This document shows, piece after piece, positions 14,191-63,930 of a DNA stretch of 64,000 nucleotides. The notes under the pieces were generated by a model. That model made no database searches and was not told where the DNA came from. It saw nothing but the letters and a program-made list of their open reading frames with translations. Every line of letters begins with the position of its first letter. Position 1 is the stretch's first letter. Both the position numbers and the translations under genes were made by a program. This DNA comes from Branchiostoma floridae (Eukaryota; Chordata; Leptocardii; Amphioxiformes; Branchiostomatidae). The stretch lies in the NCBI RefSeq assembly GCF_000003815.2, contig NC_049992.1:11236753-11300752 (forward strand), written 5' to 3'.

Positions 14191-14524
14191 TCAATGGAAG
14201 ACTAAATCTGTTAACGAAACAGGCACTTGACACCTGTCCGTCATCAGAGTCACCACGCCCCTTTTCTCCATCTCCTTCAGAATCCGGTACTCCGTAGTGA
14301 AGTTATGTATCCTATCCATCACAGCAGGTTGGATATAGTCATCCGGGTAGTAGTGGTACGGCAGTGTCCGGTACCAGAACCCTTGAGGGGCAGTCCTGTA
14401 CGGATAGTACCCGTACAGATATATCTTATCACAGAAGTTGGTGGCTGCAATGATAGTGGACATCCCTGTTGTCAAGACTGCGCCGAGATGTCTGCTTAAT
14501 TCGGGGAAGATCTTCCTTAAGATG
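14191..14524 (-). CDS. Sialyltransferase B exon 4 (motifs S, III, VS)
   Basis: Acceptor TTTTTTCTTAG|C. Contains motifs S, III and VS and the stop codon. Confidence 0.88.
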
Positions 14525-33055: not shown

Positions 33056-33352
33056 CTATGTATAAGTGTCGCCATTGCTATCCTTAGTAAAGGTTCCCAT
33101 ATCCGTTGTGTCCTTCATAACATATTTCAGTTCACCATTGTCCAATAGAATTGTCCAAAGGTTGTCAAATCCAACGTCCTCCTTGCTCAGTTTTTTTTCA
33201 AGATCAGAGAAGGACGACCCCGCATTAGGCTTCCGTTCCGTCGATTGGTTCCCATAGCAAGTTGTCAATATTTCACGTAACATGGTGTCATTTGGACATT
33301 TTACGTCTGCTTCAACATTTGCAATCGCATGAAGTGTTTTGCCAGTGGTTCT
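33056..33352 (-). pseudogene. Out-of-frame remainder of the kinase C-lobe
   Basis: Directly downstream, in another frame and behind a TGA (33353-33355), an open stretch reads KTLHAIANVEADVKCPND, MLREILTTCY, STERKPNAGSSFSDLEKKLS and ends at TAG. This matches kinase helices alpha-G to alpha-I (CP..lL.eil..C....eRP.fsdLe.kL). It may be an exon with an unrecognised short intron, a pseudogenised tail, or a sequencing/assembly indel. No single-base change alone would join the two frames, because the TGA also intervenes. Confidence 0.6.
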
Positions 33353-36300
33353 TCAATGATTTGCTACAGACGACAGGATAATGTAGCGTAGGCGGATTTC
33401 CGGATGATCATTGTCCTCAGCCTTTGCCACTCGTCGAAGTCTGCCTGAAACGATTTCTGTGCAGTCTCGCCCGTCCCGACGATCTTTGCACTGGTGAAGT
33501 CCGCTATCACCACCTTTATGTGCGGTAACTGAGAAGAAACGTGCACTGTTAACTTATCATCTTTACCAAATAGTTGCATTCAGATCGTCAGTCGCAATCT
33601 TCATGACTAGGGAATAGCGTATGACTATGAGAGTGTTGTGGGTCGATATCTACAATTCTTCGAAGGAGGTTATATAGGGATTTTTGTTTGAAGTAAGTAC
33701 ATATACAGTTCGTTTCATGAACATAGCCTACCAACATTTCTCCTTATGATTCTAAATGATTCTAACGGGTGTGTTGTGTAGACATATCTTCTCAAAGCAC
33801 GTGCACACTGCTTTAAAGGCTTGAAGAATTTGGACTTTAATCAAACAAATCGAACATATTTTTCGTTAAAAACTATTGGTCGTTGAAAACTATTGGTCGT
33901 TGAAAACAGTTGACTACGAAGTATGTGTTTAAACAGAGGATGATGAGTCTAACCTTCTCTACCAGTACTCCGTCCAGAGTCAGTTTGCCCAGGGCGATGT
34001 TTTCCTGGTGTAGGAAGTGCAGTGCTTTGGACATGTCCAACGAGATGGTCAAAAGATCTTCCGATGACAGAGTTGGGATAACCTCCTTCAATTTGCAATT
34101 CTCATAGACAGTGTACAGAACCCTGTAACACACCAAAAAAAACGGTGAATGTACATTGCAGTGCACTGATAGGGAAAATTTGAGAACCTGCGGTGACCAT
34201 CGAGTAATACAAAAGACTTAAAAATGGTACACGCTGTTTTCTCTGCTTAGCACTCAGCATTCGGGAAAGAATATGGAAGTTGAACACACACTACTACCAG
34301 TGGACTAGCCCCCCTGCTGTAGTGATTGCACAAAGTTGTGTGGCCCAGGGCTACTGAAACGGAGATGGCGCCACCCTATGTGCGGGAAGGACTTTGCCCT
34401 CGACTTGCAGTTACTATAAAAGGCAGCTAACGATGTAAACTAGACCTACAAGTCCAACTACGTACCACTTGTAGGCGTCCAACTCTGGGATAACGCACTG
34501 TCGCACGATGTTCTGGTGACCACCTGACTCTCCTATCCGCCGTAATACTGACATCTCCTGTGTAGCCGATCCCTCAACCAAGACTGTAGACTGTATAGTA
34601 AGTAATAGAATAATAACGATTAATATTGTGTCTGGGCCTTGGAAATTAAGACCATGTCATGACTCCAACTACCACGAACACGAAATGGATAACTACTACT
34701 CTGTAGAAATGGACGTATACCTGTGACAAAAGTAAAATATTCCCAATGATAACGTTGTCTCAAAATTTCTCTGTTCCGCAAGAAAAAAAAAAGATATCCG
34801 AATGTTCTTAGGCGATAGTGGAAAACAGCACGTATCAATGTGGTGCAAATTTATCACATCGTAGGAATCGTTGCAGAGAAGGAAAATCGAAGATGTACGG
34901 ACTATAGACCCTTCTGTTCCGTTCGGTGGTCGCCATTAATCACCCGGCACAAGGGGAAGGAAAACTAATTACAATCAAACAAGCTATTCACAACCGTTAT
35001 GTAAGGCGTTAAATGTTGTCTTGGTGGCTCAATTTAGAAACCATTTTGGGTTTTGCACAATCAGCAGACGTTTGACGAAGCCGTTAATGTGAAGATGTAT
35101 GTAGAGGATAATGGATCAAGACAAGATAATGCGTACCGTTCGTCACGGCATTCTCCGGGGAAATTAAAGCCATTTAGAAAAGTAAACTCAATCTATGTCT
35201 GAAGGCAGAAGATTGAAATTTCACGTATGGTCACAGTATAGCTCTGAGTAAGCGAACTTGGGTGCCTGAACCGGACATGCGTAAATAGTTATATAACTCA
35301 TTACCACAAGACAACTATATTCTGTGCCTTTGTCTGTGAAGGTTAGACATTCGCGGATTAAAATACGTAATCAAGGTAACAGCTACACAAGCAACTGAAT
35401 AGAGTTTGGAAATGGTCAGGCGTTTCAGGCACAATCTTTCACAAGTGACTAAACGATATGGTTCACGTGGATCAGAGGACCGATTGAAAACCTGGTGAAC
35501 CACATATCCTATTCAGCCTCTGACAAAAGGCAATGGAGACCTAAAACGTTTAGCCGTTTAAAAAACACAAAACAACAACAACAAAGTATCCAGTTGCTTG
35601 ACTACGATTGCTAGCCTGGTATCCATCCGAAATATAGCTCCCAAGTCTCTTCACTCCTTTTCGCAATTACTAAGAGGAGAGAAGAGACCCGGGGGCTATA
35701 TTACGGCTGGATACCAGGCTATACGCTTGCGTTCTGTAACTATGTTATACTGAAGAGTAGTAAAGTTGTTTGGTACGTACATAGCTCCGAAACTGCAGGA
35801 TAAGTTTGACGACAAAGTTTGTTTCCACGTCGACGCTCAAGCACTGTAGATACGCCTTGATGGCTTGTTTCTCCTCGGTCTGGTCTGATCCTGTCAGAGA
35901 ATGCAGAAGAAATCATTTCATGGTTAACGCACCAACCGGGGTATCTCATAAGGACGTGTATATGAATACCGATTTGGTAACTAAATTTACTTCATAGAAA
36001 TGATTGGATAGCAAACATCACTCTCTACTGCCATACAGCATTCATCAGGGTTAAGAACTGAGACCCTCCACAAGAAATAAATGCACCATATTAAATCGAA
36101 TTGATGTACTTCGCTCAGTAGGAACTAGAGGACGTTCTACTGATTTGCCCCATACATGAAGTACCTGTTTGACGCACAGAGGAACGTTTCAACTCAAGTC
36201 GTCGACAAGTAGAACATATTTCAAGACATGTGTTGTTCGTCCGTCAAGTCGACGAGGACCATAGATACCAGTCGATAGTGTATAACACCGCAGGATCATC

Positions 36301-39300
36301 GCTACACTGTACCAGACAAAGGTCCAGGATGACACTAAATGGCTTTACCAATACATTAAGAGAGGAAAATACGTAGAAGAAGATCATTTGGACCCATGAA
36401 ATTCTTTAAAAGGTCTTCATCAATCAGTTTATAAGCAATCAATAAATGTTTGCCAAGGAGTGTGCGCGAGGGCGAAAGGTTTAAGCTTGAAGAATTTAGT
36501 ACCCCCGGGAACATGATACAGGTGTGCCAGAAACGATAGCATTTTTTGAGAGAGGTCTTTAAACGTCGTTTGTGAAAACCATGGACATTAAAATTGACAG
36601 AACGTCGATGTTTTCAGGGACATGGCAATATTAAACATAGTCCACAGACTGACATTCTTACTGCGTTTGGAGAAGATACAGAAATGAAAGTTGACAGCCT
36701 GCCGATGTGTTATAGCGCCATCCGTCCTCCACCAAACACAGATAACAGGGCCATTCGTCAAGATTACTCTTCTTCGCGAAACTCGTAACTGTATCTTAGA
36801 ACTAGAGCGAACCCTTCATCTCTGGCCATGCAATCCCGGTTATTCCGGAAAGCCAACCTTTGATACATGACAATAATGGAGGTACATTTCGTCTTCATCT
36901 TACTAATGGACCCGGGTCGTGCCCCTCCGTCAATCGTCGGACAATTGCAGAAACATCTAGGCGTGCATCACAATGTTACAGCTTCCTGTGAGTAAGGTTT
37001 TTTTTATTTTTTAGTCAAGCTTATCGCACAACGATTGTAATAGGTACAATGTATGGCAAATAACGTATAACTAGCAACTACAAACTATCTACATCAGTAC
37101 ACTAATCTAACATAATAGAAAATATGGCGGTATAGTGTATTTCACATTGTTAAAGCACTACTTCTTTTTTGCATAGCATTATATATATATTAGCCTAGGT
37201 ATAAGCGTAGAGATTGGTGTATCTTCAACTTTTGATTTCAAGTACATCTATATACCCCTGGCTGTTGACCGTTAACAGAGAGGGAAAAATTTAGCAGAAA
37301 TGTATATCATATCAGCCTGTATTTCATCATGATATGAAGATCATCATCATCTTCAACCGTAGATATTTTGTGCTTGGTTTTTCAAAATGCATATCTATTT
37401 AACTGTTGTAATGTACGTATACTCATGTACAAAAATGTACTATGTATCCATGGGGCTGATCATTTGCTTACCATTACTTCTGAGAGTGCCAGTTGATGCC
37501 TTGTAGACTCTTCTCCCCAGGGAATCCACGAAAGTATTCACAATGTTTCCGTTGGCTTCGGCACAGTTTGTGGCCTCTCTTTTGTCAGAAGAAAAGTCTG
37601 CCAGGCTCGCGAGGTGTATAAACGGGTCAATGCCGGCAGATATTGTCATCAGGAACAGGGCAGTCCAAACGGCAAGGTCGGGCGAGATCTTCTCGCCGAC
37701 TCTCGTGAGAATTCCCGTGATTACCACCACGGTCCAACACAGATAATTTAGCACCAGCAAGCCCTTCAAACCAAGGCGTAATTTTTTCTCTTTTGCTGAA
37801 TCCTTGCTGAAATACAAGTCGTTTGCTAGCGGGTTTGGCTTGCCAGCATAGAATGCTATGATGCTCGAAACTGTAGTAAGCACCATGATTGTTGCCGGCA
37901 AGATGGTGTACACGAAGAAGACATACTTCCATCCCGGTTCAGCACTGGACAACACGGTTGTCAGAACAGGCGTGCATAGCCCCGTCCTGCTGCCGATGAA
38001 GTATCCAGTCAGCTGGGATGAAATAGTCAGAGTTATCGTGCAACAAAATGAAAGCGTCCAACACACGGATGCCACGATCGAAGGAGAGTGCATTCTGTTC
38101 GTCAGGTATTTGATTGGAAGCCGAGGAAACACGTGATTTTCGAGCATTATTGCTCCGACGAGAAATAGGGACGACATCTTGGAGAAGGTGAAGACGACGG
38201 CAGCAGATGCACACATTGTGCTAGAGATCCAGTGATCAGCATAAAAGATATACTCTCCACGGAAGAATGCGTCTGCAGAGCCTATTACTAAGAGATACAG
38301 TCCTGTACAGAAGTCTGCCACCGCCAGGTTACATAGGAACGCCGTCCACGTGCCGCCATGTTTAGTCCTCAAGTGTTGAAGAACAACTGTCGGGTTTCCT
38401 AATATGGACAACAGCCCCAGAACCCACGTGGTTATTCTCAGGACGTTACTGGCGATGAGATGGTCGCATGTAGAGGTGGGGTCTTTCTCCGCGGTACAGA
38501 CGTTTACTCGTGGGGCAAGGCAGCAGATGATGTCATCATCTGCAACACTGTTGACAACCAAGGAGAGAGAACAATGGTAACAGTTAGCTTCGATGAGACG
38601 CTCTTTTTCCCTTTTATGTGCAAACTACACGTATCAATGAGTTAGGATGTAAAATTGACAGTATGGATGGGCAGTTGTATACGATCTAATGTAGTAAGGA
38701 GAAGATACAATGCAATAGTCTATGATAGAATACAATCACGTCAAGAAGTACAGAACTTACAGAAGTCGTAAGTTCTTCATGTGATCGAAGACGTCCCTGT
38801 CGTATTTATCGATGTTATTGCCACTCACATCTCTGAAACAGAAACGAATATGAACCGTCAAGACAACTATAAAACCATTTACCAAAACTTTGTGACTAGG
38901 ATAGTGAGTGTTGTATCTTCTCTGTGCCTTTTACTTAAAGATCGCAGTGTGTCGCCTCCGGAAAAGGGCCGCTAGCAAAATTTGACGTGTAGACCCCCCT
39001 CCCATACTACAACTTCCATTGTTCACCCTGTACCAATACAGGACGCTCTCAATCCGACCTTATTCTCATACCAATTGCACACCGTCAGTTTAACTCTTGT
39101 ACGAGCGCCAACAGTCATAGACCAGAAAGTCATAAGGCAGCTTTGATNNNNNNNNNNNNNNNNNNNNNNNNNNNNNNNNNNNNNNNNNNNNNNNNNNNNN
39201 NNNNNNNNNNNNNNNNNNNNNNNNNNNNNNNNNNNNNNNNNNNNNNNGCAGACTCATAATTGATAGGAATAAATACTACATGCTGGGCACCACAACCAAT

Positions 39301-39740
39301 CCAAAGGTCGCGAACGTTTCTGGACTTATATTGCACATCTACACGTTTTGTGATGAAAAGCAATCAGTCATAAAATGCCATCGGTCGATCATTGTCGGTA
39401 AAATATTACGTTGTCTCTGACGTTGCACAAACAGAGATGCAATTAGCGAAGGAAGCCGGAAGGACTTACAAGACTTGGAGTTTCTCTAGTCCGCTGAAGC
39501 TTGAGGACCTCAACGCCGTTATCAAGTTCCCACTTAGATTTCTGGAAAGAAAGTTTTAAATGTACTCTTATGTATTTCATGAATGTTCAGTATTCTATTG
39601 CTGCTAGTGTGTGTATGCATGCAGGATAGTGTGTGTATATATGTATGTATGTACGTTTGTATAAACACGTGTGTGTATTTGTGTGTAGTATATATGTGTG
39701 TACGTGTATGTGTGTGTGTGTGTGCGTGTATGTGTGCGTA

Positions 39741-39774
<34 letters not shown>

Positions 39775-42700: not shown

Positions 42701-45700
42701 TGTAGCCGACCGTATGGACGGCCGCGTTTGCCGAAGCCCAGCTCAACTGGAATTGAGTGAGTTAACGAGAGTTGCAAGGACGAGTGCAAATCAATGTAAC
42801 TCTGGGGGACGCCAAGGTGGGCCGAGAATACACTGGAGAACTGATGAAAGGGTTAGAGTTATTAAGACCCGATCAATCAACGATGCACTTTGCTGCTGAT
42901 TGTCTTATTTCACCTTTTGTAAATGCGCAGAAAAGACAACATTTTATAGATTTTCTACCTGAAACTCCACCAGAGGAATCGTTAATGAGTCAAAAACAAA
43001 TTGAAAAGTAAAGTTTCCTTGTCCAGAACTTCACAAGGTTTATAGCTGTATCCCATGTTTGTTGAGTCACGGTTAACTCTAAGCACAAGATTGCATGATT
43101 ACGAAAGATCACTTGCAGACCCATGTAATCTACAGGATCAGAGAAGCTCCGTGATGAGGTGTTCGCTCAGTACTGCAGTGCTTTACTTTAAGTTAGGACG
43201 AGTACATTCTGAAGAGTACATTCGAATAGCTTACCCTATATAGCTATTACGTAACGCTGTTGAAAATAGATGAAAGTTTACGCGGCACAAAAAGAAAAGT
43301 TGCTCGTCACATCAAGGCAACGATAGATCTTCTTGCAAAGAAGTTAGTCTGTGATTTGTAATCTGTCGCTTGTTAATGTTATATTAATTGAAGTGTCATT
43401 GGGAGTATTGTCATGAGATTGCATGCTTACCATATAAATTCAAGTAACATAATGTATTAATCTGTTTCAACAAATTGACATGATTAGAAATGTTCTAGTT
43501 TTAGTTTAAGTACTGGTTAAGATAATTCTTCTACGGAGAGAAATTTTATGCGGTCTTCTAATATGTATTTTCAAAGAAGTACTTACAGGAGTAGAAGGGT
43601 GTGAAGAGTTCCAAAGGCATTCTCCGGTAGCTGCTGGATGGAATTGTTGCTTAGGTCCCTGGAAGGAAAATCAATTCTCATTTATAGAAGAAAAGCGGAT
43701 TCCAGCGTTAACGTTCTGTTATTCATCAAACTTTGTTCAGGACTGGCTGTTTGATTCCATTTTAAATTCATATAAGCATTTCGCGTACCCATACAGAGAC
43801 ACACATGTTTCAAATTGCATGATATGCAGGTAGATGATTTTTGTTTCTAGTCCAAACTCGATTCTGTCTTAAACGTACTATAATGTGGGAAAATTTCATT
43901 TTCAACTGTTTTAAAAGAAAGAAGTCAAACCCCGCAATAGTAATGTAGATTTTAGAATCGTCCTCGATATTCTTTATATACATACAATCAGCTAATCTTT
44001 GTATGTTAGAATTTAGATTATTTACCCGTTTTCAATCACTCAATGTATCTGATTTTTTTTCACTTGCAATTAGCCCCATGGGCATGAATTTGCAATAAAA
44101 CATTTCAATTGATTCGATATATTGTAATCTTTAATGAGCATGTTTGATATGGCGACCCAACAAGGTGGCTATGCCTATGTACATATTCTACATTAATGAC
44201 AAAATTGAATGATTCTTTACAAGATTGATTGAACCACGGAGCCCATAGTTCGCAAGTTGTGTATGAATCATGTTTGTAAGCTAAAAATCGATAAAACCCA
44301 CAAAACGTGCTGCTGTAAATTAATAGGACATGGATTTATCAGCGCTGATTGGCTACAAGGGAGCCAATTTTTCTAAAAGACGCTTGTGATGTGGTAAAAT
44401 CCCATGACAGCTGTGACCGTCGTGCTTTATACTATATCATGTATCAGGCTTATAGCAACTGACTTAATTATCTCTCTGTCACTGGTGCACCACTGTTATT
44501 CCTATTAGTAAAGTAGGAACAGAATGTAGTTTATGACCACTGAGACTTCCATTTGTTTGTCATCGCAATGTAGGAGTACACGCCCCGTTTTCAGCTGAAA
44601 AGTGCTACTAATTGTGGCATTTCGAAATGGCCCACATATCTACATTTTATTAAGCAGGCGTACGGGACGTACGTACGGTTGGAATATATCAAACTTTCAA
44701 ACACGCACTTAGCAGTCTGGACACGTAGTATACTTAAGAGTCATTGCACGATAAAACCAGGCAGAGGCCGGAAGATGGGGGTCGGCCAAATCGGCTCATA
44801 CTTTGTATGTGTGATAGGTATGTGGAACTATGAACAGCCATATAGTTAAAACCCTCCAGCTATTTTTCGTTTGGCGTTCTGGGACCCCCCTCAGAGACCC
44901 TCGAAAATCCAACAATTTATGACTGAAAATTACCGAACTTGCGATGGCTACGCTAATAAATGTGATAACGATGAGAATATAATCTTTGTATTTTCATACA
45001 GCATGGACTCCCTAGTTTCACAGACCAAAAGTTGAAGATGAAACATTGAACTTGAGAGGGTGTACTTGGGGGTTACTAGAACCACTAAAAGCAGAATTTT
45101 CATCTCTGTGAATTTTAGTTCTTTTTAAGGCGGAATATTTTCTATACCCAGTGGGTCTGGTGAATGGTTTCAATGTTGTTGGACAGAGGAACATCAACTT
45201 ATTAAAAAACAATCGTCATCTAATTGGGCCATACATAACGCGAGCCGTGAGAGGGGGGTCTGTATGGGGATTTTTCGGGTTTTGGTCTATATCAAATCAT
45301 GTAATGATGTGTTGCTATGGGGATAAGTTATGGAAAATTTTGCATAGCTTTGTGAAAAACATGCACAGCTGTCATTAAATGCAACAATAAGTTAGCAATA
45401 ATAATTTGGGACTCTGCATGGGGGATAAAAGGTTACTTGAAAATGAATTTCACCTCCCATGCTTTACACATATATCGTTGCTTTTTCATTTGGACGAGTG
45501 CGTTACTTACTAAATAACTGTGTACATTTACGTTGAGGTAAATAATTTTAAAGGGCTGTGTATGGGGTTTATCAGAACTATAATACTGTAAATGCAGAAA
45601 TGTTCGCGGTGGATTATTGTTCGCGGTTTTTGCAGTGACCACTTTACCGCGAACTTAAACAACCGCGAACATTTTTCTATTATGGTATTAGACTGCAGTC

Positions 45701-54180: not shown

Positions 54181-54219
<39 letters not shown>

Positions 54220-57200
54220 TGTGTGTTTGAACCTACCATCTTTTTGCATTGAGCAAAGCACGTGAGTTGGCACCCGTCTGTAGCATTCCGTCGTTGCCGC
54301 CTCCCACCTCTTTCCCGTTCCCTCTTCTTTTTCCAAAACGTTACAAGTGGCTGTTCCTTCTTCCTTTATTTGCATGAACACTTTCGGTTCAGGAAATCTG
54401 GGCCAACATTGGTCGAGGTACTCTTCTATCTGTGGCAGTTTGTCGGTGTGGTTTACCAAAACGACCGTTCCTCCAACATCAGTACACTTGTCATCATAAT
54501 TTATTTCTTGTCCTTTTAGCCGGTAAAGTTTCAGACATGTGGATCCAACCAGAGTCCATCCTTCGTCGCATCCTAAAGAGATATAAGTTTATTGGTATAT
54601 CATGTACTCTAAATTCCATTTTGATATAAATTTACTTTAACTGCAATACTATGCCATTTCTATATTTACTACCATAAATGAATGTCTATGTGACATTATG
54701 TATATTATTGATATGTAAGACCTAATAGAATTGGAAAGGTTTTATTGATTTTAAGAGCTTTTTCCCATAGCATATTTGTGAGAAATGTAGACGGTCAAAA
54801 GGCTTAGAAGGGTACAGTTCGTAAACAGTTAATGTTTTCTTAATATTTGACAGTGTTATGACGTACCTCTTGCGCCAGCCTTACAGATAAAGTTCCTGCC
54901 AGCACGCGGATAGTCACACGGTACAGGGTACCACCGTGTGTCCATGTCCCCCTCCTGCCGCCCTGTCGTCATCAGCGTACAGGTCCGGGCAGCCTTCCCC
55001 TGCCCGGTAGGCTCGGGCGGCCTCCCCTGCCACCTCGTGAACCTAACGGCAACACTGCAATCTCAGCATGTAGCTTGATGTACTACTTCCAACTTAGCAA
55101 AGGGCATTGAGTAATGTGACGTAACTGCATGGTAATCTGATGTCCATTTCTACACAAAGGTTAGAGGTATTAAAATGTTCCAAAAGAATTATCAGCGTCG
55201 TAATTGCGATGTGGTAGTTCCTTTCATCGTACAAAAGTACAAGGTCAGGATTAAGATAGGAGGAATGACTGATGTGGTATATTATCCCTACATTTAGGTT
55301 GAGATTATAGCCCACCCGAACCAATGTCACTTGTCCGCCACTGAATTGAAGTTTGGACCCAGGTTTACCTTATCGTATCCATCACGCCTGAATCATAACT
55401 TTTTACTGCTTCGATATGAGAGCCATAAAATGGCGAGATGTGACCAGAGACCGCGGACATCTATCACTACGTACAAGTTAAGCCTACTGGAGTCGATTTG
55501 GCTCCTCTTTGGACTCCATTGAACCGACTACATCATTTACCAAGTTTTGTAAAACCCAGAATAATGGCTGAGATTCCACCTCAAGGTTTTGTTTCATACT
55601 TGGTAGCAGGGGTTGCTGGAGATTTGTGGGGCTTGGCATACTCTTTGACAAGACAGTCAGCACGCCAAGCACGTCTCCGGAATTCGGAACATCAAATATT
55701 CAAACGGCTCGTTTCTGAGAAGGACGGCTCCTGTATCCTGAAATCCCTTTATCACGGCTTTTCGTCTGGAAACTAATCGGTTATACGGAGAGCTAAGATC
55801 ACTGGAGTCACTGAGTTGCTTCATTTCCATATCGCAGCCACTTAGCAAATTAAGAAGCCTGACGAACGGAAGCTTTGAAGTGGCTTTGATCAAAAGAGTC
55901 GTTAATTCTTTTGAAAAGCAGCTCTAAGAGCAGGAGTGAGGTGCATTAAGTCGAACAAATTTCTTTGCGAGGGTATCAAAATCTCTTAACGACGAAGTCT
56001 TGTAGTTAATCAGTCGTTCCATAACTTGAAGGAGAGTGAAGCACAAGAAGGAAGCATGTTCATTTCGTACAACTTTCAATGATGAATTTGGTATAAAATC
56101 AAAGAGACGTCCTTGCGAATGAGCATTTTGAAAAGTTTTAATCCTTGATGTCTTAATTTTGTTGTGCTGCTATTGTGCAATGCTCCACAAAAGAATGGAC
56201 AAGATGCACAGAGCAGACCGGCAATCGATGTGCTCCTCCAACATTTTGTTTTCATGATTGCGATGTCTATCAATTACTGCCTGCATACGCATGGAGTCTA
56301 TGTTAAAAAGACAAATGAACAAAGAGCGTCAATCCAATCTCGTATGGTTCATGTTCACTATGCTGACTGTAGCGATCCGTCAAACGCTGACCTACTCGGC
56401 GAGAGAGCTGCAATAAATCTGACCACAGCCTATATTGCTGGTGAAATTGATATCAGTACCAGTACCCTTAATATAACAGTTCAATCAAGGCAGAAATGAA
56501 TAGGGAGTTTTGAAATTTACACACCTCGCTGTGTGTGCACATACCACTAGAATACGAAGTAACCTTAACGGTAGTAATGGCCGTTGAGATCAACCAATGG
56601 GCCACAAATATGATTTCGTATCTTATTAAGCAAGGTGGCCCATATACTGTATTGTTGAATTAGATTTCATTTGTTATTAATGATTTAACTAATCTCCAAG
56701 CAGATCTTGCTTGGCATAAGACGGTATACGTATCATAAGCTGGGGAAGGATCGAGTTTAGGCGGCAGAGGAGTAAATTGGCCACGCGTGGCCAATTCACT
56801 CCTCTGTCGGCTAAACTCTTTCCCCAGCTTATGATACTGTCTTATACCACGCAAGATCTGCTTGGAGATTGGATTTAAACTAAGCGGCAGTGGATTGTTC
56901 AGTTCAGTTCCGTTTATTAGAGTTCATTCCTTGACAAAGACTGGTGCCGTTCAGTCGAAAATTTGGACGAGTCTAATTGGATATCACAGTTAAACTGGTT
57001 TAACTACAATGCTACTCACGTGACGTCACTCCCATCAACCCATGCGTACGTTCCCGATGTGCCTTTCGACCGTAAGCCAATGAACGCTGTTATTGGTGTA
57101 CTCCCACCGGCAATCAAGCTTTCTCGGGCCAGCCTCTCGATGAACTTCATCTCGTACGGACTCGTGATGCTCGCGAGAGTTGCGCCCATGTCGCTGCATC

Positions 57201-60200
57201 GCTGCTGTGCGGACTCCCACCACAGCGGTACCTGACTGGCTAAAACCTGGTAGCAGTTCCCTCTGTAGTGGGTAAATCCAGGCTCGCACAGCTCCTCAGA
57301 CAGGTACACGTCTGGAGCAGAGGAGAGTTGTTTAAGTGTTTTGGTGCAGGTAGTGTCAGAATAAAGGTCATGTGGAGAGGTACAATAAACTTCTCGCAAG
57401 CCTCAAAGAGAACAATGTTTTTCGTATAGTTCAGAGCACAAGATATAGGGTAGCTCACCGTCAGGAACTTACGCCGAGAGGCAGATAAATGTAGCAATAT
57501 AAACTGTTATGCTGAAGTATATGTATGACGATCTAACCTTATAGTGAACAGTTGCATTGACTCGCATAGGTAGATAAAGTAGTGTTCATGAAAGTTACAT
57601 TATCTTCTATGGAGCTAGGAATATTGTACGAATAAGACCAATCTTATTTCCTGGCATAACATATAATACCTACTATGCCCTAGCCATTAGATCGTAACGA
57701 ACACCCGATATAATTGACTGAGGACCCTTTCTACAAGCTGCTGCCGCTCCGCTAGTGCAATTATGTACCCTGTTAGGGCGGCGTGCCATCTGCCGTCTCG
57801 ACCAAGTGATTGCTCATAAACCTACCTCCAACCGAAAGTTTTCTACTTTAGTGCTTTTAGGTTTTATATCACCACGGATTGATTATCCTACACCTAGATA
57901 GGGCTACGGTAAAGCCTGTGCGGGTATATCACCGCGGCGTCCTGTATTGCAATCTGATGTTTTGGGATTTTATGACCCCCAGGACGGTGCGTAACGTCAA
58001 AAGGCTATAGATACACACAGCTTTGCGGCACATAAAGGGTAGCAAACTTAATTGTTTCTCCAATGAAGAGATGGGAGGGTAGGTCTGCTTTTTCCAGCCA
58101 TGCCAGGTAGCCAATCCCATGTGTGTCTTGTATGTAGACGAACATTAATAGGATACCTATATAAATACTGGACCTCTGTGAGTAGGGCTGAAAGATAAGG
58201 ATCGTCATTTGGCATTATTTTTCTAAATTGAATTAGTTTTTCCTTGATAAAAGCAAAAGGCGGGCGCCATGGGTTCCCGATTGGGACTTTTCTTCTGCTT
58301 GATCAAGTGAACAGGTCTCAACAGTCTGACAAGGTCAAAATCAAAACTGAAATACAAAACAGACAGTGATGTAATGTACTGTGGAGTCGGTGTCAAGTGC
58401 CATTTGCATATACGTACCTAGTGATTATGTCGCGTGCGGTGAAAACGATAAGAAGGAGAAAGTAGGAAGGAAGTTTTGATTTGGAAACTTTAAATGGCAC
58501 CCATCAGCATACAACGACATGTTGCATGCCACGCATACAATGACATTCAACAGAACAGGTCTATTGCACATTTTTGTTTGAACACAGGCACACACGCAAT
58601 GAACCAGGTCCAGAGCCTGAAGCCAGGTGACGATTTGAGCACAGCTCCATCAGGTGGCCTTTGGTCATGCCCGGCGATCTAACCTCTACCCATCACGGTG
58701 TGGCATAGCCACTCCGAGAAACCCCGAGACTGCCGTGTAGTCCCGGATCAATTTCACACTTTGTTGCCTGTAGAGATGGATCGTTTTGTCCCGTGATGAA
58801 TGGTCTGGGTGGAAGGTAACACCACCTGGGAGCTAATTAATGACCCCCTAACCACGGTTTGGCAGAAAAGGACTACTTTTCAGCACGCTCAATCTTTAGC
58901 ACTCAGCTCAAAATATTGGACAGAACCACCCGTTTAAAGTATGGCGGATTTCGAACTTTAATAATCCTTTCACACTGAGTCAGAATCGACGAAAATGTCA
59001 AAAGCACAATCCCTTCATTCTTTGTAATCACCACAGCTGTCATAAAACATAGTACATTGACCTCTAGGACTTGTAGTTTAAACTTTTCTTACTTTTGTGA
59101 TACTATTATATAACCTAAGTTGGCAAAGAAGAGCAAAATGCAACTTAACTGTATAGTATTAGTATCATACTCACGTATTACGAGTACGTAAAAGGCATCT
59201 ATCTTTAAACGGAATTTAGAAAATGTCGTGAATTTGAAATAAATGTTTTAATTTGCAGGTTGTCATTTGAAGGTTGGGCCAATGTTATTTGTGCTTAATA
59301 TCATTATTCACAATTACGGCAGAAGTAACCAATTACCTTCCATATGCTTGACAAAGGTTGCCTCCTCTTCCATCCAGTAGTGAGCCACAAATCTGGTTTC
59401 AGTACCGTTCTGGCCCTTGGAGAGTTTAATCAGAACTTGATTTGTTGTGGATAAGTAAGGAAAGATGTCATAGTTTTCTGTCAGCTCGTTTGTCGTCTGA
59501 AAACCGCCATTTTTAGCTCCCTCCAAGATGGTGACGTAGTCATCGACGTCACCGTCGGACCTCAGTCTGATTGGCTGGAAGAACATCAGGATGCTCTGAC
59601 CCAGTGGAGAAGTCACGAGCCACTCACATGTAGTGGCTGAAGAATTTGTCGGCGAGAAGATTGTTCCGCAAGAAGCGTCCAGGTTGACACGTGGGCCACA
59701 GGTTGTGGTCTGTGATCTTACGCACTCTGGAAGAAGAAAATAAGATTTATTAAAAGATAAACAAACGAAACCGCTACACAGTAAGATTTGTTAAAGCTAG
59801 ACACGTTGTAGATGTTGCTTTTCTGTGCTAGGCATTTTCTATTCTATTTTTGTATTGGTCGCAAAATAGCGAATCATAAGTCTCAATTCCATTCTAATCA
59901 AGGAGCAACTTGTAAAAGTACACAATATGGTTTATCAAGCGCGACCAGCGGCTTTGCCTAAGTTACTGTGGGATTTCGTAGCCTAATAGGGCCTTCACAC
60001 GGAAATCGAATTAGCAGGAATCAAGCCGAACCAGCCGGAATGAAGTATTTGCAAACTTCGTGTCACATTCGGGACCATTCGGGTGGGAATTCCGAATGGG
60101 CCTTAAATCCCCTTCACACGAGAAGGAATGAGCCGGAATGCCGTCAGAATGAAAATTCTTGTCTATTCCTGTGAATTCGTAGTGCATTCTAGACATTCTT

Positions 60201-61039
60201 ACGGCGTTCGAAATATTCTTTCGGCCACATTCTGGCAGGATTCGAGGTGGCTTGCCGTTTCGGTTCTACATCGAATGAGATAAGAATGTTTCGAATAATG
60301 TTAGAATACCATAGAATGCGGTCAGACTGCAGTCAGAATAGTTAGAATACACTAAGAATCCACTACGAATGCCATTCGATATTTCTCCACTTCGAATGCA
60401 CCTCGACAGTTTTTAACATGTCAAAACTTTCGAGCCAGCCAAAAGAACGGGGACGAATATCTCGAATGCAGTAAGAATGTTTAGAATACAGTACGAATTG
60501 CGAGGAATTGCCACGAATAGAAAAAAAATTTCATTCGGACGGCATTCCGGCTCATTCGTGCTCTCGTGTGAAGGGGGCTTAAAGCTGAACAATATTCATC
60601 GTACAGAATTCTAGTACTTCAGCTACACATCAGGTAAACGATTTACCTGTTTCTCTGAAGGAGAAGAAGAAGCCGCTCTTTGACCACGCACAGCGAGACC
60701 TGTACACTACTTCAACAGAGCTGCTGGAGGACAAAACCGTTCTCCACTCGGTGCGAGCATCTCGGCAGTAGGAGTAGATCAACAACGGGCTGTCACCGGA
60801 TTGGTCGTAGACCTGGAATGTCAAAGAGAAATGATGATGATAGTACCAGTCCTGACAAACTCTATGATCTATGATCTAAAAAAATGAATGAAAAAAAAAT
60901 ATGCAAAGAATAGACAACGACAGATGCGATATTCGTTTGAAGATCCCCAAGATGTTTTCGTTGAAGAGACAATCTGTGATGAAACTAGTGGATGATTGTT
61001 TTTGTCATGAAAAGTCTTGGAACTATTTGTACATGTATG

Positions 61040-61089
<50 letters not shown>

Positions 61090-63930
61090 CGCGCGCGTGT
61101 GTGTAAACATGCTAGTAATTTGATGTTTTAATATGGGTTTAAAAGTTTTTAACCCAGCATTGTGACTGCATACCTCGTCAAGCAAAATTCGGCTGTGTGT
61201 GTAAATATGCACAAGGGATTTAATATTTTGCTATGGGTTTTAAAGTTTCTATCACAGCAGGAAGGCTGTATACCATCCAAGCAAAACTTTGGCTGTCAGA
61301 GGCCCTGTGACGTCCTGATCAAGCAAACCATATCCATCTTCCCATGCGGCGACGGTTTGGCGCTAATGGTTCTTCCTACACTGCACAGCCACTAATCTAA
61401 ACTTCAACGTGGCATTTCGGCTTTCGGAAAGAATGGCCGAGGTTGCCGATCTAGCAATGCCTGTCTGTCTGCCTGCAAGATTACGTTTAATGTAAAACAT
61501 TGAGAGCCTTGAATGTATAATTTATAAGGTATATTAGAATTAGAAGGTTGCTTGAATAATGGAATGCGGAATTCCAAGAATATCGCCAGAACTAGACAGC
61601 AGTAAACAGAAGCCTGACCATACGAGGACAGACAGCCACATTTTTTCAATCAGACGACTAAAAAGCAGCCGCATGTACCTGCACGTTCCAGACACATTAT
61701 GCTTTTCGTGTTTATGAGTTCTGACGCATCAAACTTGAACCAAAGAGACCCTGTAAAATTGAAGAGGAAAACAAGGACAAAGGTGGTCGTAAACGTAGAC
61801 AAATCATTTTTCAATTTTCATCCAGTGTATAATTTGACTCCCCCTTTGACATTCTTAACGTCTGTGAGGGTGTTCCTCGCCAGTATCCAAAAATCGATCG
61901 GTACTGCACTTCGTTAATGTTTCTGCCATATTGCAGACTATTGGCATCGCCATGGAAATGATATAAATCACGTTCCCTTCATGCGTGTTAGGTTAGGGCT
62001 AACCATTTATATTGTCACCCGCAGATCACAAGGGGATAATTCGACTGTTACTGAAGTAGGAGGCCCACCCTTTCGGGTCACACACCGTGTCTTAACTAAT
62101 TAAGTTCCCTCCTATATTAATGATGTATCGGCTGAGTTCGCGCCGATCTCTATGCTCTGTGGCCTCTCACAATATGCTGAAGCAGAGATGGATTACGCCA
62201 TCCAAATGGCAGAGGAATTCATTTGTACGGGAATATTACAGAATATTTCATCTTCAAAACCATGCGACCTTTGGGTGCCAATACGCGATGGGGACACACA
62301 GCATATTGAAGTCAACGCCATCGATTTGTGAAGGCTAGATAACATACATTATTGGAAATAGTAAAAGCAGCGGCGAGCTATACAACGAAATATTCTCATT
62401 GTAAAATGTCGCGTTTTTACTAGACTTAGGTGTGCAGAGAAAGCGCAGAAAATGGATGAGTTGGATTTTGTATTACGTCGCCACCTTGACTTTGTACTTG
62501 ACTGTGAAATATTCTGGGGAACAGTTAATGTACCATGACAGCCGCAGACTTCCTCATCTTACAGCTTAGCGATCTTACGAATTTGTCATGCGTTCTTTTG
62601 CCGATGAGGACTTCTGCGGGAGATGATTTAGAAACTTCTGCGGTAAAGATGGTCCCTTAGAAACTGGTGTAGCCTTGCTATTTAATAAAGAAGTAGTGAT
62701 GCATTTGGTATATGTGTGCAAGACTTGACTCTAAAATCGGCAGCAAAAATAATGACAAGACTTTTTTCACAGACGATATGTGTTGCATTTGAGCAATAGT
62801 TCTGTAGCGACAGTCCATCATACAAACGAATCGTTGCCTGAATTGTTCTACAGGGACCCAATCCCTCTTGCAGAAAATAGAAGTCGCGTTGTAATCTTAA
62901 CGAGAAATGATGAATACCACTCTGCGGTACGGCCCATATATCTTCCTAGTTCATACGGTCACAAGAATGTGTCGGGATCATTGCAGCAAAACGATCGTTC
63001 CGCGGGAAACTAGGCTGTATGCCATCGATTTAGACTTTCAAGACGCGGCCCAGATCTGATTTCTTCCCGCGGAGAAAATAGACCACCTGTAGCCGTCCCG
63101 ACGGAACATGTCTTGGATATCTGGTGTCGGTAGGGAATGCCTTACACGGTGTACAGTAGCCTCAAGTGTTGCTACTCCATACGGAGACTTATCAGCTGGC
63201 GAGCTGCCTGCCACTCCTCTTACCTCCATGAGTAATGGACCAAGTCCAGTTCCTTTACAGTAATGCATTAATTCATTTATCATGTTGGGTTATCAGTTTC
63301 CTCCGGGGAGAGGCGTAGATAGGTACCCGTACACTTCACAGAAGGGTATATACTTGTAATGAGAGTGAGTAGTAAAGGGAACTTAGAAAGGACACGTACT
63401 TAAGTCGGTCGATCGTAGAGAGGCTTACAGGAAAATGGACTGCAGTTAGAAGTGCGTTAGAAATGGCGCCTTGGCAAGCTCACCCCAGGGATGGTGGTCT
63501 TTGACCGCTTATAGATCTTCACCAAATGCGTCTGGTATAATGTAAGAAACTTGGAATTGATTTGAAACTCTTGTGAAAGTATGACTTCTGTTGTCATGAT
63601 GTTCGTACACATTATCTACATGTTTGATTATGTTAAGTACTGTATGCTTGCCAAATACATTATCGTGAAGTTTATAGTTGCAAAGTTTGGGTGATACCTG
63701 TAAGTCTTCTTCACACAGATCCTTCATCCCTTTACAGACAAACTGGACATCCTGCATTGCGGAGATTGGTGAGAAATCCAGCTTGAGGTTGCTGCCACTC
63801 TTGCTTTCAATCATGATGTGATAGTCCAGGTTAGTGGAAGCCTGTTGAGGTGCCTGTCTGAAGCTACCACATTTCTCAGTCACTGAAATCGTTGAGTTTT
63901 CGATCAAAAGATGAGAGAAGTCTTGGCAAT
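33056..63930 (-). CDS. CUB/C-type-lectin/LRR 7TM receptor with C-terminal pseudokinase
   Basis: At least 16 exons on the minus strand join in phase: 63698-63930, 60647-60812, 59337-59726, 57020-57311, 54867-55054, 54237-54572, 53752-53857, 53098-53166, 43587-43658, 39470-39541, 38761-38832, 37472-38547, 35781-35890, 34466-34590, 33954-34122, 33364-33528. Domains in order: CUB, CUB, C-type lectin (two exons), C-type lectin, LRRNT, four LRRs, LGR/GRL101-type 7TM, protein kinase-like fold. The 5' end is outside the window. The ectodomain suggests binding of glycans or proteins at the surface. The intracellular part keeps the beta-3 Lys and alpha-C Glu but lacks HRD, so it is probably a non-catalytic scaffold. 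LRR-ectodomain GPCRs with mixed modules are known in invertebrates (GRL101 has LDLa plus LRR). A kinase domain fused behind the 7TM is unusual for animals. The kinase C-lobe is interrupted by stops near 33353-33366. The large central introns hold a 7-kb transposon and several MITEs. Confidence 0.85.
33364..33528 (-). CDS. Receptor exon: kinase activation segment, ends in TAG
   Basis: Acceptor GTTTCTTCTCAG|TTA. VVIADFTSAKIVG carries DFT in place of DFG (33493-33501). FDEWQRL then resembles helix alpha-F. The frame stops at TAG (33364-33366), before a complete C-lobe. Confidence 0.75.
   Translation of the reverse strand, partial: LPHIKVVIADFTSAKIVGTGETAQKSFQADFDEWQRLRTMIIRKSAYATLSCRL
33954..34122 (-). 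CDS. Receptor exon: kinase hinge and degenerate catalytic loop
   Basis: Acceptor GTGTTACAG|G, donor GAGAAG|GTTAGA. LYTVYENCKLKEVI is the hinge, LLTISLDMSKALHFLHQENI is helix alpha-E. The catalytic loop reads LGKLTLDGVLV where kinases have HRDLKPENVLL, so the catalytic Asp is Lys (about 33984-33992). Confidence 0.85.
34466..34590 (-). CDS. Receptor exon: kinase alpha-C helix
   Basis: Acceptor ACTATACAG|TCT, donor AAGTG|GTACGT. ATQEMSVLRRI gives the alpha-C Glu, and HQNIVRQCVI matches the 'HpNIv' stretch that follows alpha-C in protein kinases. Confidence 0.82.
35781..35890 (-). CDS. Receptor exon: juxtamembrane and kinase beta-3 strand
   Basis: Acceptor CTGACAG|GA completes the Gly codon left open by the 7TM exon; donor AGCTAT|GTACGT. 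It ends NFVVKLILQF, read as kinase beta-3 with the ATP-contacting Lys at 35805-35807. Confidence 0.75.
37472..38547 (-). CDS. Receptor exon: hinge and seven-transmembrane domain
   Basis: A single 1076-bp exon, as in LGR/relaxin receptors. The hinge has the CCLAP motif and a Cys cluster. TM1 shows LSILGNPTVV, TM2 LAVADF, TM3 follows the conserved Cys (STMC), and ECL2 has GLCTP. TM6 has LCW, TM7 IDPFIH. The DRY box position reads ENH (about 38133-38141) and NPxxY reads DPFIH (from about 37628). Read-through gives a stop a few codons after the donor (AATG|GTAAGC), so an intron-retaining form would end just after TM7; splicing adds the kinase-like tail. Confidence 0.92.
38761..38832 (-). CDS. Receptor exon: LRR 4
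   Basis: A 72-bp exon: DVSGNNIDKYDRDVFDHMKN then LRLL. It splices straight into the hinge of the 7TM exon. Confidence 0.88.
39148..39247. other. Assembly gap (100 N)
   Basis: Run of exactly 100 N, so its size is nominal. It lies in the intron between LRR 3 and LRR 4, so an additional 72-bp LRR exon could be hidden. Confidence 0.95.
39470..39541 (-). CDS. Receptor exon: LRR 3
   Basis: A 72-bp exon: NLSGNLITALRSSSFSGLEK then LQVL. GT-AG borders and phase as in the other LRR exons. Confidence 0.88.
39600..39775. repeat. (TG)n-rich microsatellite
   Basis: Imperfect TG/TATG tract in the intron between LRR 2 and LRR 3, 5' (coding sense) of LRR 3. Long open frames over it are compositional. Confidence 0.95.
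40711..41285. repeat. 131-bp direct repeats flanking a MITE
   Basis: Bases 40711-40840 and 41155-41285 are closely similar (GATCAGCAGCGTAGTGCGGG, CAATTGTGTAGATTTGTATT). The MITE at 40869-41080 lies between them. Confidence 0.85.
40869..41080. mobile_element. MITE with TACTGTAAATGCA ends (complete copy)
   Basis: Perfect 13-bp terminal inverted repeats TACTGTAAATGCA / TGCATTTACAGTA. The inside is made of repeated inverted CCGCGAACTTAAATCCACCGC-type blocks, so it can fold into several hairpins. The flanking TA suggests a TA target site. Related copies are at 45584-45752 and 3081-3138. Confidence 0.85.
42599..42670. repeat. Short segment shared with 53603-53673
   Basis: About 71 bp (ATCAAACGTGACAA, GATGTAATGTTTGCCAATGG) repeated in the same orientation 11 kb away, just 3' (coding sense) of the LRRNT exon. 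Both lie in introns of the receptor gene. Confidence 0.75.
43587..43658 (-). CDS. Receptor exon: LRR 2
   Basis: A 72-bp exon (24 codons): DLSNNSIQQLPENAFGTLHT, a canonical LxxNxIxxLPxxxFxxL repeat. The intron on its 5' side holds the 7-kb transposon. Confidence 0.9.
44738..45440. repeat. Left terminal inverted repeat of the transposon
   Basis: Matches the inverted sequence at about 51000-51706. The translated stretch GLVNGFNVVGQRNINLLKNN is identical in both arms, reflecting near-identical DNA and not a gene. Confidence 0.9.
45584..45752. mobile_element. MITE nested inside the transposon
   Basis: Same family as 40869-41080, shorter through an internal deletion. It starts TACTGTAAATGCAG and ends GTATTTACAGTA. 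It lies between the left inverted repeat and the transposase ORF. Confidence 0.85.
46752..50285 (+). CDS. Transposase of the TTAA element (1177 aa, superfamily unassigned)
   Basis: Single intact ORF without introns; the first ATG is at 46752 and another in frame at 46782. The N-terminal about 170 residues hold Cys/His pairs (CPKHRYDL, CAHPEH, CNPCRKR) that look like zinc-binding, then a Ser-rich low-complexity linker. A second Cys/His cluster (CGDHC, CNHSH, CERC) precedes an RNase H-like core. Candidate catalytic acids are D666 in ALIVMDWAMKF, D750 in FLRSDNAGCYH, and D782 or D788/D791 in FSDPQAGKDICDRKI; these assignments are inferred. Near the C-terminus there is a C2H2-like finger (CPEPGC...HMDVGEHC). 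I recognise the protein type as one of the uncharacterised multi-copy proteins of corals, fish and amphioxus, but not its superfamily name. TTAA ends make Kolobok-like the first hypothesis. Confidence 0.85.
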   Translation: MRFYVLAANMSCSFGSPDSECGLSRYYPEDISVIPLSACNKDVTNYLATLGLSGRGHGQTDLSEQDLILNRSGRFGLSEEEKNNLTVCPKHRYDLTTRWTGGRRNTCAHPEHVGRKTALKEPRRVPMFLSTQMYRTYNTVVPVGSAMCNPCRKRAVKDAERDVERPTGSQDLSSDQPGPSSYPQSTMGPPSQPVGTAASTSTALKATSQVSSSESSSVISETPIVETTFESQSSSTSEGEANISTWVDEQHQQEQNREALNKAVDQITEGRISPLRSSLNTPWEEVTERQRNYYLKKTREVMSATMSVIAPGQESDLWRSLVQAPPLYEEPPAKKKMWDQQMVQTLVKAYQEADTWQTRQQILSLFADDYTKDELQELIPGLSKWRIDQARAHASESGPGKPVQQQPIYRTRLNPVKTDHFLAFLTQLHLLQDVVYGTKTMKLDSGEVITIPAAIRTIIPSRIIQQYSQYCTSANFQPLPDRTLFKIIEVCAARQQKSLQGLDYISTEGAEAFDAMCSVVDSLVQNGASADWAKTVTHKLKEGKRYFKTEYKTHVKLEDRCGDHCIAFALSEKGKETLSVRCNHSHEIACERCSEIDSSLLEVQKMIEEEGLLTEEHKSRLCFTFEQSSSAIYSWKSHLLRAVNQDLAKQSALQQLDTKSALIVMDWAMKFLPLKYREQMTDFFGKRGRSWHVSAVITKGDEGKYDVECFVHIFNNCRQDWSAVCAILQSVLQTIKSENPSLTNVFLRSDNAGCYHCAPLILSLPAIGKKTGISVLRFDFSDPQAGKDICDRKIASMKTHIRRYVNEKHDVLTAEHMKEALESHGGVKGCRIAVAQTDEANKEQARQKWEGVKSWNNFMFETDEDIRVWKAFGVGVGEVVTFATVPQTHDLPTLTITAPFGPPQSHTSHITTSAGGTKSALFCCPEPGCVAAFSSANKLEDHMDVGEHCKELERESTYDKIRKQWAQAVTGIAHGPGLASQSLGEGSGVGVGGSARVVNEGWAIRTVKGGQRMSDKMKTYLTDIFNQGAKSGQKADAVQVAHEMQHVKGADGKLLFQPNEWRTAKQITSYFARLSAAQRQKESTESENTDMEAIDEESEWQELRKTVYTSIDYSHPVMFEDINLCELAKTKGLKSLKLKQLKCISDHFHLPITGSMARKVSFIQALENILSTCTCAS
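51000..51706. repeat. Right terminal inverted repeat of the transposon
   Basis: Inverted copy of 44738-45440, ending CGTGCAATGACTC|TTAA. Confidence 0.9.
53098..53166 (-). CDS. Receptor exon: LRR 1
   Basis: A 69-bp exon encoding LLGSNRLNFTAQSFTSWHLL, one diverged leucine-rich repeat. It has the same phase-2 borders as the other LRR exons. Confidence 0.75.
53603..53673. repeat. Short segment shared with 42599-42670
   Basis: Second copy of the 71-bp segment, 80 bp from the LRRNT exon donor. Confidence 0.75.
53752..53857 (-). CDS. Receptor exon: LRR N-terminal cap
   Basis: Acceptor CTCCCTTTAG|CC, donor AAACT|GTATGT. TCPVVCSCLEDTVSC then LEQLPDMI is a typical LRRNT with its Cys cluster. Confidence 0.85.
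54160..54228. repeat. (TG)n microsatellite next to an exon
   Basis: Ends about 9 bp from the donor of the CTLD 2 exon (54237), so on the coding strand a (CA)n tract follows the 5' splice site. Such tracts can act as splicing enhancers. Confidence 0.95.
54237..54572 (-). CDS. Receptor exon: C-type lectin domain 2
   Basis: Acceptor TATCTCTTTAG|GA, donor AGATG|GTAGGT. A one-exon CTLD-like module: CDEGWTLVGSTCLKLY, CTDVGGTVVLVNHTDKL, then C-terminal CYRRVPTHVLCSM. It lacks the WIGL and EPN motifs, so it is a diverged, probably non-sugar-binding CTLD. A CA microsatellite abuts its donor. Confidence 0.75.
54867..55054 (-). CDS. Receptor exon: C-type lectin domain 1, second part
   Basis: Acceptor GAGATTGCAG|T, donor AAGAG|GTACGT; phases join WVDGSDVT to RFTRWQGRPPEP. 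It ends RWYPVPCDYP and NFICKAG, the CTLD terminal W...C...ICK pattern. The EPN/QPD calcium/sugar triad is replaced by PPEP, so classical mannose or galactose binding is not evident. Confidence 0.85.
55490..56280 (-). pseudogene. Possible decayed coding fragment
   Basis: Minus-strand stretches with protein-like composition in shifting frames (for example LPFVRLLNLLSGCDMEMKQL and KFVRLNAPHSCS). They lie in the receptor intron between the two CTLD 1 exons. No family recognised; it could be old transposon debris. Confidence 0.25.
56691..56870. repeat. 180-bp fold-back element
   Basis: Arms starting AATCTCCAAGCAGATCTTGC are inverted at the right end (to 56870). The centre is the palindrome GGCCACGCGTGGCC. 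Near-perfect pairing over about 80 bp per arm. Confidence 0.9.
57020..57311 (-). CDS. Receptor exon: C-type lectin domain 1, first part
   Basis: Acceptor CTCTGCTCCAG|AC, donor GTCAC|GTGAGT. Contains CEPGFTHYRGNCYQV, WWESAQQRCSDMGATLASI, FIGLRSKG and YAWVDGSDVT, the standard CTLD core with WxDGS. Confidence 0.9.
59337..59726 (-). CDS. Receptor exon: CUB domain 2
   Basis: Acceptor CTTCTTCCAG|AG, donor GGAAG|GTAATT. It shows a full single-exon CUB: CGTIFSPTNSS, CEWLVTSPLGQSILMFF, DVDDYVTILEG, TTNQVLIKL and TRFVAHYW. Several N-x-S/T sites. Confidence 0.85.
60103..60582. mobile_element. MITE with TTAA flanks and CCCCTTCACACGAGA ends
   Basis: TTAA at 60103-60106 and 60579-60582. Inverted ends CCCCTTCACACGAGA...GAATGAGCCGGAATGCCGTC. 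The inside is built of many GAATG/CATTC words. A related degenerate fragment precedes it (59990-60102). Confidence 0.8.
60647..60812 (-). CDS. Receptor exon: CUB domain 1, C-terminal half
   Basis: Acceptor TTGACATTCCAG|GTC, donor AAACAG|GTAAAT. Contains VYDQSGDSPLLIYSYC (CUB 'D..s..a..l...C' region) and the closing strands with a final Cys and SGFFFSF. Confidence 0.78.
61040..61103. repeat. (TG)n microsatellite
   Basis: GTGTGT tract with a short GCGCGC interruption, in the intron upstream of the CUB 1 C-terminal exon. Confidence 0.95.
61130..63697. other. Receptor intron between the CUB 1 exons
   Basis: No repeat or exon firmly supported. A short minus-strand ORF with a signal-peptide look (61641 downward) and a minus-strand open frame at 63038-63283 are unproven. 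Confidence 0.45.
63698..63930 (-). CDS. Receptor exon: CUB domain 1, N-terminal half
   Basis: Acceptor CTTTTTTTCAG|AT, donor TTACAG|GTATCA, phase 0 at the end. Four Cys and the CUB-like blocks YHIMIESKSGSNLKLDF and VQFVCKGM are visible. The upstream exon is beyond the window. Confidence 0.75.

Follow-up and report, generated by a model that had tools for sequence, protein, structure and literature searches.

The question raised by this locus is whether a chordate 7TM receptor can carry a kinase-fold domain as its own cytoplasmic tail, in one polypeptide, and what such a tail would do. In the accepted view, an animal 7TM receptor signals via G proteins, kinases, and arrestins that are molecules apart from it. 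Fused 7TM-kinase domains are described in protists and sponges in the accessible text of two papers (PMC12716839, PMC5784254). The stretch of DNA analysed here, termed the window, consists of 64,000 nt of the 513-Mb Branchiostoma floridae genome (G000:C14:11236753-11300752). On its minus strand is a gene whose predicted product, GRL101/relaxin-receptor-like in outline, is a class A-type 7TM receptor bearing LRRs, with a truncated pseudokinase as cytoplasmic tail. The gene is one of four of this kind in the genome.

Gene model and domain order

Sixteen minus-strand exons were rebuilt. All 15 introns are GT-AG, the phases agree, and the product is 1208 residues long with zero internal stops, the reading being open to a TAG at 33364. 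An AG also precedes exon 1 of the model, and exon 34122-33954 displays a weak donor, GTTAGA. In the four tail exons 59-67% of third codon positions are G or C, vs 45-73% in the twelve others. The last four exons are referred to as k1 to k4. The exons, in window positions and with the support for each, are:

Exon 1, 63698..63930, minus strand: CUB, first part (GT-AG and phases; CUB matches two stretches of the product)
Exon 2, 60647..60812, minus strand: remainder of the first CUB (splice model and Pfam on product)
Exon 3, 59337..59726, minus strand: second CUB (CUB 2.7e-6 on frame)
Exon 4, 57020..57311, minus strand: C-type lectin domain, first part (Lectin_C 8.2e-9)
Exon 5, 54867..55042, minus strand: C-type lectin domain, remainder (Lectin_C at product residues 294-414)
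Exon 6, 54237..54572, minus strand: second CTLD-like segment, by eye only (open and in phase; no Pfam lectin match)
Exon 7, 53752..53857, minus strand: LRRNT (0.0067, below cut-off)
Exon 8, 53098..53166, minus strand: LRR 1, 69 nt (splice model and Pfam on product)
Exon 9, 43587..43658, minus strand: LRR 2, 72 nt (LRR_8 9.5e-17 across the LRR exons)
Exon 10, 39470..39541, minus strand: LRR 3, 72 nt (Pfam on product)
Exon 11, 38761..38832, minus strand: LRR 4, 72 nt (Pfam on product)
Exon 12, 37472..38547, minus strand: 7TM core (7tm_1 2.2e-12; three paralogues)
Exon 13 (k1), 35781..35890, minus strand: linker and beta3-like strand (phase 1/0; counterparts in the paralogues P1-P3)
Exon 14 (k2), 34466..34590, minus strand: alphaC with conserved Glu, and beta4, 125 nt (paralogue comparison)
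Exon 15 (k3), 33954..34122, minus strand: hinge, alphaD-alphaE, and degenerate catalytic loop LGKLTLDG, 169 nt (Pkinase; paralogues)
Exon 16 (k4), 33364..33528, minus strand: DFT for DFG, short segment, D...W helix, and stop (Pfam; paralogues)

A Pfam search with the whole product shows CUB (E-value = 1.4e-8, two stretches), Lectin_C (9.6e-12, a single stretch), LRR_8 (9.5e-17), and 7tm_1 (2.1e-11), as well as Pkinase at 8.6e-6 with 25.8 bits, below the cut-off of 31.7. An earlier note, made from the sequence, had proposed sixteen phase-compatible exons in one polypeptide, with a direct joint between the 7TM and kinase segments, and the rebuilt splice model agrees on both. The 7TM exon (38547-37472) ends ...AATG/GTAAGC in phase 1, and exon 35890-35781 gives the two bases that restore a Gly. 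The proposed arrangement CUB-CUB-CTLD-CTLD-LRRNT-LRR x4-7TM-kinase-like holds in its overall order, with CUB, CTLD, LRRNT, LRRs, 7TM, and kinase-like tail in one open frame; however, the second CTLD (54572-54237) yields no Pfam lectin match and the LRRNT is weak. The note had also placed the 3′ limit at 33056. Coding extends to 33364, and the 98 aa frame at 33352-33056 is not counted with the gene. This frame had been considered as a decayed C-lobe (alphaH-alphaI by eye) and was rejected. It shows no Pfam match, matches only itself genome-wide at E 10, and gives one PDB match, a flagellin hook protein (E-value = 0.0014), with no stretch passing alone.

Since complementary halves of another CUB are found upstream (L010:5278-5622 and L009:3976-4212, unspliced), the gene probably extends beyond the window on that side. 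A tblastn search with the model for tandem copies at E 0.01, run on L001-L030 with some 100 kb of flank below the window and 119 kb above it, gave a single hit, an overlap with exon 1.

Reading through the 7TM donor leads to a stop after about 10 codons (near 37440, minus strand), and an AATAAA is situated 463 bp inside the intron (near 37008, minus strand). These two features make a short isoform without the tail possible.

Other elements are present in the window. The intron between LRR 1 and LRR 2 contains a 1193 aa frame (46704-50285, plus strand), for which Pfam gives nothing below E 0.2, flanked by two near-identical frames in opposite orientation at 45112-45378 (plus) and 51085-51321 (minus). 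The region 45112-51321 has the look of a DNA transposon whose long ends are inverted. Two minus-strand frames, 42477-42761 and 53592-53882, have a stretch at and around IPLANITSxVTFD in common when compared by eye and are probably a repeat element in the introns of the gene. At 11151-17179 (minus strand) there are pieces of at least two sialyltransferase genes, apparently in tandem (Glyco_transf_29, E-values 7e-14 to 2.5e-27).

Paralogous loci on C3

A search of the whole genome with the tail at E 1 (25 of 25 candidates scored) gave 12 matches. Four are the window's own exons and eight are at three places on C3, with E-values of 0.01 and 0.13 for the weakest two. The 7TM exon gave 14 matches at E 0.001 (34 of 34 candidates scored), and the three best after itself are found at the same three C3 places. 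There the tail matches are directly 3′ of the 7TM paralogues, on the same strand, and with exons k1-k4 in order. By a crude uniform model of the genome, the chance of the tail and 7TM places coinciding is of the order of 1e-13. The three paralogues are:

P1, C3:20841081-20838029, minus strand
P2, C3:20966479-20970032, plus strand
P3, C3:26543185-26546678, plus strand

The order LRR-7TM-tail is present in all four genes. LRR-type sequence is found upstream of the three paralogous 7TMs, by Pfam for P1 and P3 only and with the ectodomains partly covered. The P1 ectodomain displays an LRRNT above the cut-off and four LRRs, with a lectin-like end ahead of them by eye. An LRRNT followed by LRRs ahead of a class A 7TM is thus seen in the window gene, where the LRRNT is weak, and in P1. 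P1 and P2 agree with the window gene in the position and phase (1,0,2,0) of each of the four introns. The P3 model has an unclear k1 donor, where a GC site is used as a guess, and an unsettled 5′ boundary of its 7TM exon; the remaining tail junctions agree. Exon k3 is 169 nt in all four genes, and k2 is 125 nt in three and 128 nt in P3. With the P3 tail as query, the genome search returned 10 matches, of which four are its own and four are in the other three genes; two further weak matches are on C1 and C7 (E-values 0.07 and 0.13).

The order of the exons might also come from two neighbouring genes, an LRR-7TM receptor and a separate small kinase-like gene, merged only by the model. The read-through stop in the window gene would accord with this, as would the AATAAA within its 1581-bp intron, two such signals in the P2 gap, and one in-frame ATG in P1, 15 codons before k1. 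However, order and strand are kept at four loci, the gaps between 7TM and k1 in the paralogues measure only 240 (P1), 481 (P2), and 298 bp (P3), the k1 acceptor is in phase 1 in every gene, and in three of the four the open stretch before k1 has no in-frame ATG. Separate gene starts within these gaps at four loci are very unlikely, and merging of two genes is a most improbable account. The fusion of 7TM and tail is, with high confidence, a genuine feature of the window gene. The decisive evidence for it, drawn from sequence comparison, is the finding of tail and 7TM paralogues at the same loci.

The P3 7TM is nearest to a receptor at C4:28028121 (38%, vs 30, 29, and 26% to the other members). 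In this C4 receptor (G000:C4:28027250-28028249, L048), the NPVLY sequence leads into a Gly/Lys/Pro tail of low complexity, and the stop lies in that same exon. No kinase-like exon is present in the approximately 500 bp examined on its 3′ side, and tail searches with the window and P3 queries show no match on C4. Because the P3 7TM is nearer to this tail-less receptor than to the other members, the family history may include tail loss or regain. Either the tail was lost from the C4 receptor, or rapid 7TM evolution followed the loss of DRY in the window gene, P1, and P2, or modules were exchanged. The result concerns the timing of the fusion and not its presence in the four genes.

The kinase-like tail and the 7TM core

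The window tail searched alone gives Pkinase with an E-value of 2.4e-7 and 30.9 bits (cut-off 31.7), covering profile positions 17-155 of 263, and PK_Tyr_Ser-Thr with 26.0 bits, above the cut-off of 23.1. All four paralogous tails match Pkinase (E-values 2.7e-5 to 6.8e-12), the P3 tail with the highest score (45.8 bits) and the P2 tail with the lowest (24.1 bits). Three of the four pass a curated kinase cut-off, and the P2 tail passes none. PDB profile matches are to mixed kinase groups (EGFR and PKC theta; FGFR1, PAK, and others), the best being FGFR1 with an E-value of 2.2e-5, and the tail is therefore not placed in any one kinase group.

The catalytic motifs are altered. The HRDxKxxN stretch reads LGKLTLDG, LGKMSLDA, LGRMSLDS, and LNGISLDN in the window gene, P1, P2, and P3, i.e. 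HRD is replaced by LGK, LGK, LGR, and LNG, and its catalytic Asp by Lys, Lys, Arg, and Gly, respectively. DFG is DFT in the window gene and DFS in P1, P2, and P3. The alphaC Glu is kept in all four tails. A candidate beta3 Lys in the direct alignment is shared by the window gene, P1, and P2, with R at that position in P3; when FGFR1 is aligned by profile, its beta3 Lys faces a residue other than Lys.

A complete kinase domain with HRD and DFG is not present, as HRD is gone in all four tails and the Pkinase match of the window tail stops near 155 of 263. The product ends at or just after the conserved D...W helix, and nothing resembling alphaG-alphaI follows. Exon k4 is 180 nt in both P1 and P2, which have a common stop position; relative to it, the stop comes 5 codons sooner in the window gene and 17 sooner in P3. 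Since P1 and P2 share their stop, the early end of the tail is a trait of the group rather than the sign of a decayed C-lobe. The tail is a predicted pseudokinase with its fold truncated before alphaG. Published GPCR-TKL/K or GPCR-TK members are, as far as known, complete in their kinase domain. The term pseudokinase had been used in the earlier note and fits the loss of HRD in every tail. Two checks suggested there, a profile search of the spliced tail for a kinase fold and a search for other LRR-type 7TM genes with a kinase-like tail, both gave positive results, the first with Pkinase in the tails of all four genes and the second with three more genes in the one genome searched.

Tail similarity is higher than 7TM similarity in each of the six pairs of genes (60 v 52, 53 v 35, 42 v 26, 32 v 27, 30 v 23, and 30 v 28%), with the two values near-equal in the window-P3 pair (30 and 28%). 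The closest two pairs are P1-P2 and window-P1, in tail and 7TM alike. In every pair, codon position 2 shows the fewest differences and position 3 the most. Nucleotide similarity between the window locus and P1 is confined to k2 and k3, and none is found between the window locus and P2 or P3 at E 0.001. The tail looks to be under selection because it is more similar than the 7TM in all six pairs.

The DRY and NPxxY motifs have recognised roles in 7TM receptors, and Arg3.50 is the residue contacting G proteins. Positions 3.49-3.51, found by counting 25 residues from Cys3.25, are ENH in the window gene, QIH in P1, HMY in P2, and DRV in P3. The TM7 motif is DPFIH, NPMIQ, NPLIQ, and NPFLY, in the same order. 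Thus Arg3.50 and Tyr7.53 are both absent from three of the four cores, and P3 retains both. The 7tm_1 family is matched by P1 (8.4e-13) and P3 (1.7e-18) in addition to the window product, and the P2 7TM has no Pfam family match at E 0.1. The three cores lacking Arg3.50 suggest output through the tail. P3, with DRV and NPFLY, may couple to G proteins normally.

Proposed signalling by the fused receptor and comparison with known systems

Ligand binding by the CUB/C-type-lectin/LRR ectodomain would change the 7TM, and this change would shift the pseudokinase relative to the membrane. The shift could expose or hide a docking face for a partner, such as an active kinase, an adaptor, or a trafficking protein. 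As a scaffold or an allosteric switch without catalytic activity, the tail would complement G-protein output and, in members without Arg3.50, largely take its place. Such bypass or complement of G proteins, as proposed in the earlier note, is a hypothesis helped by the loss of Arg3.50 in three of four members. The fusion and this scaffold or switch mechanism, taken jointly, are somewhat better than an even proposition.

The main alternative is that the conserved tail only tunes an ordinary GPCR, affecting its trafficking, desensitisation, or GRK/arrestin access, with the signal passing via G proteins. The 7TM core is present in all four genes, P3 retains Asp-Arg and NPxxY and is perhaps exactly such a case, its receptor being normal except for a tail with a regulatory role, and receptor phosphorylation and arrestin recruitment are proposed for GPCR-TKLs in the accessible part of PMC6033456. 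Tuning is less easily reconciled with the loss of Arg3.50 and Tyr7.53 in the window gene, P1, and P2, or with a tail that outscores the core in similarity in every pair, and is judged rather unlikely for the family. Decay of the tail exons into remnants without function would account for the lost catalytic motifs, the truncated fold, and the stops of the window gene and P3 ahead of the common P1/P2 stop. It is very improbable: the modelled tail exons have no internal stops, the codon-position pattern is one of constraint, similarity in the tail exceeds that in the 7TM, and the P1 and P2 k4 exons are of one length and end at the same codon. Equally slight is the prospect of an active atypical kinase, to which the DFG Asp, the alphaC Glu, and the candidate beta3 Lys (Arg in P3) might point; against it, the catalytic Asp of HRD is substituted in all four tails, the sequence ends after the D...W helix, and the FGFR1 profile alignment does not place a Lys at the beta3 position.

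A shift of output to the tail is the reading favoured here, because Arg3.50 is lost in three of four genes and the tail is kept more than the core. In a more tentative extension, which we consider possible but rather less probable than not, this chordate family largely gave up G-protein coupling, and the 7TM would relay ligand binding by CUB, lectin, and LRR domains to the tethered truncated pseudokinase. The protein would then be a seven-pass counterpart of receptor-pseudokinases, possibly an innate-immune sensor.

GPCR-kinase fusions are published for oomycetes, amoebozoans, choanoflagellates, and sponges, according to the accessible text of PMC12716839. The choanoflagellate GPCR-TKL/K and GPCR-TK and the sponge GPCR-TK proteins likewise combine a 7TM with a C-terminal kinase fold in one protein (PMC12716839, in part). 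Here, however, the host is a chordate, the receptor belongs to the LRR/class A type, and its truncated kinase fold lacks HRD. The oomycete and amoebozoan GPCR-TKL bigrams also have a 7TM followed by a kinase-like domain, for which bypass or bias of G-protein output is proposed; in contrast to the amphioxus gene, their kinase is predicted to be catalytic, and the available sections mention no CUB/lectin/LRR ectodomain (PMC5784254, PMC6033456).

GRL101, other LRR-containing receptors, and type C LGRs share the LRR ectodomain and rhodopsin-type 7TM (excerpts of PMC4079206 and PMC6267866). These receptors are described with LDLa domains, whereas the amphioxus gene has CUB, lectin, and a pseudokinase tail instead. 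In the available text of these papers the word kinase has zero occurrences (PMC6267866) or one, unrelated (PMC4079206). The 2008 amphioxus GPCR survey reports CUB and C-type lectin domains in adhesion GPCRs, and its available text has no word starting with kinase (PMC2246102). A literature search, which included few subscription journals and no supplements, found no chordate GPCR-kinase or GPCR-pseudokinase fusion, and no earlier report of the LRR-7TM-pseudokinase combination was found for animals other than sponges. A tail of this kind could escape surveys whose queries are active tyrosine kinases.

A four-gene family whose kinase-fold tail is more conserved than its core would offer a natural example of direct wiring between a 7TM receptor and a kinase-fold platform. 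With members that have and members that lack Arg3.50 in one family, the need for G proteins is directly testable. Receptor guanylyl cyclases are single-pass proteins with an inactive kinase-homology domain as a regulatory element, followed by the cyclase. They share with the amphioxus gene an inactive kinase fold on a membrane receptor, but the amphioxus protein is seven-pass and has nothing after the pseudokinase.
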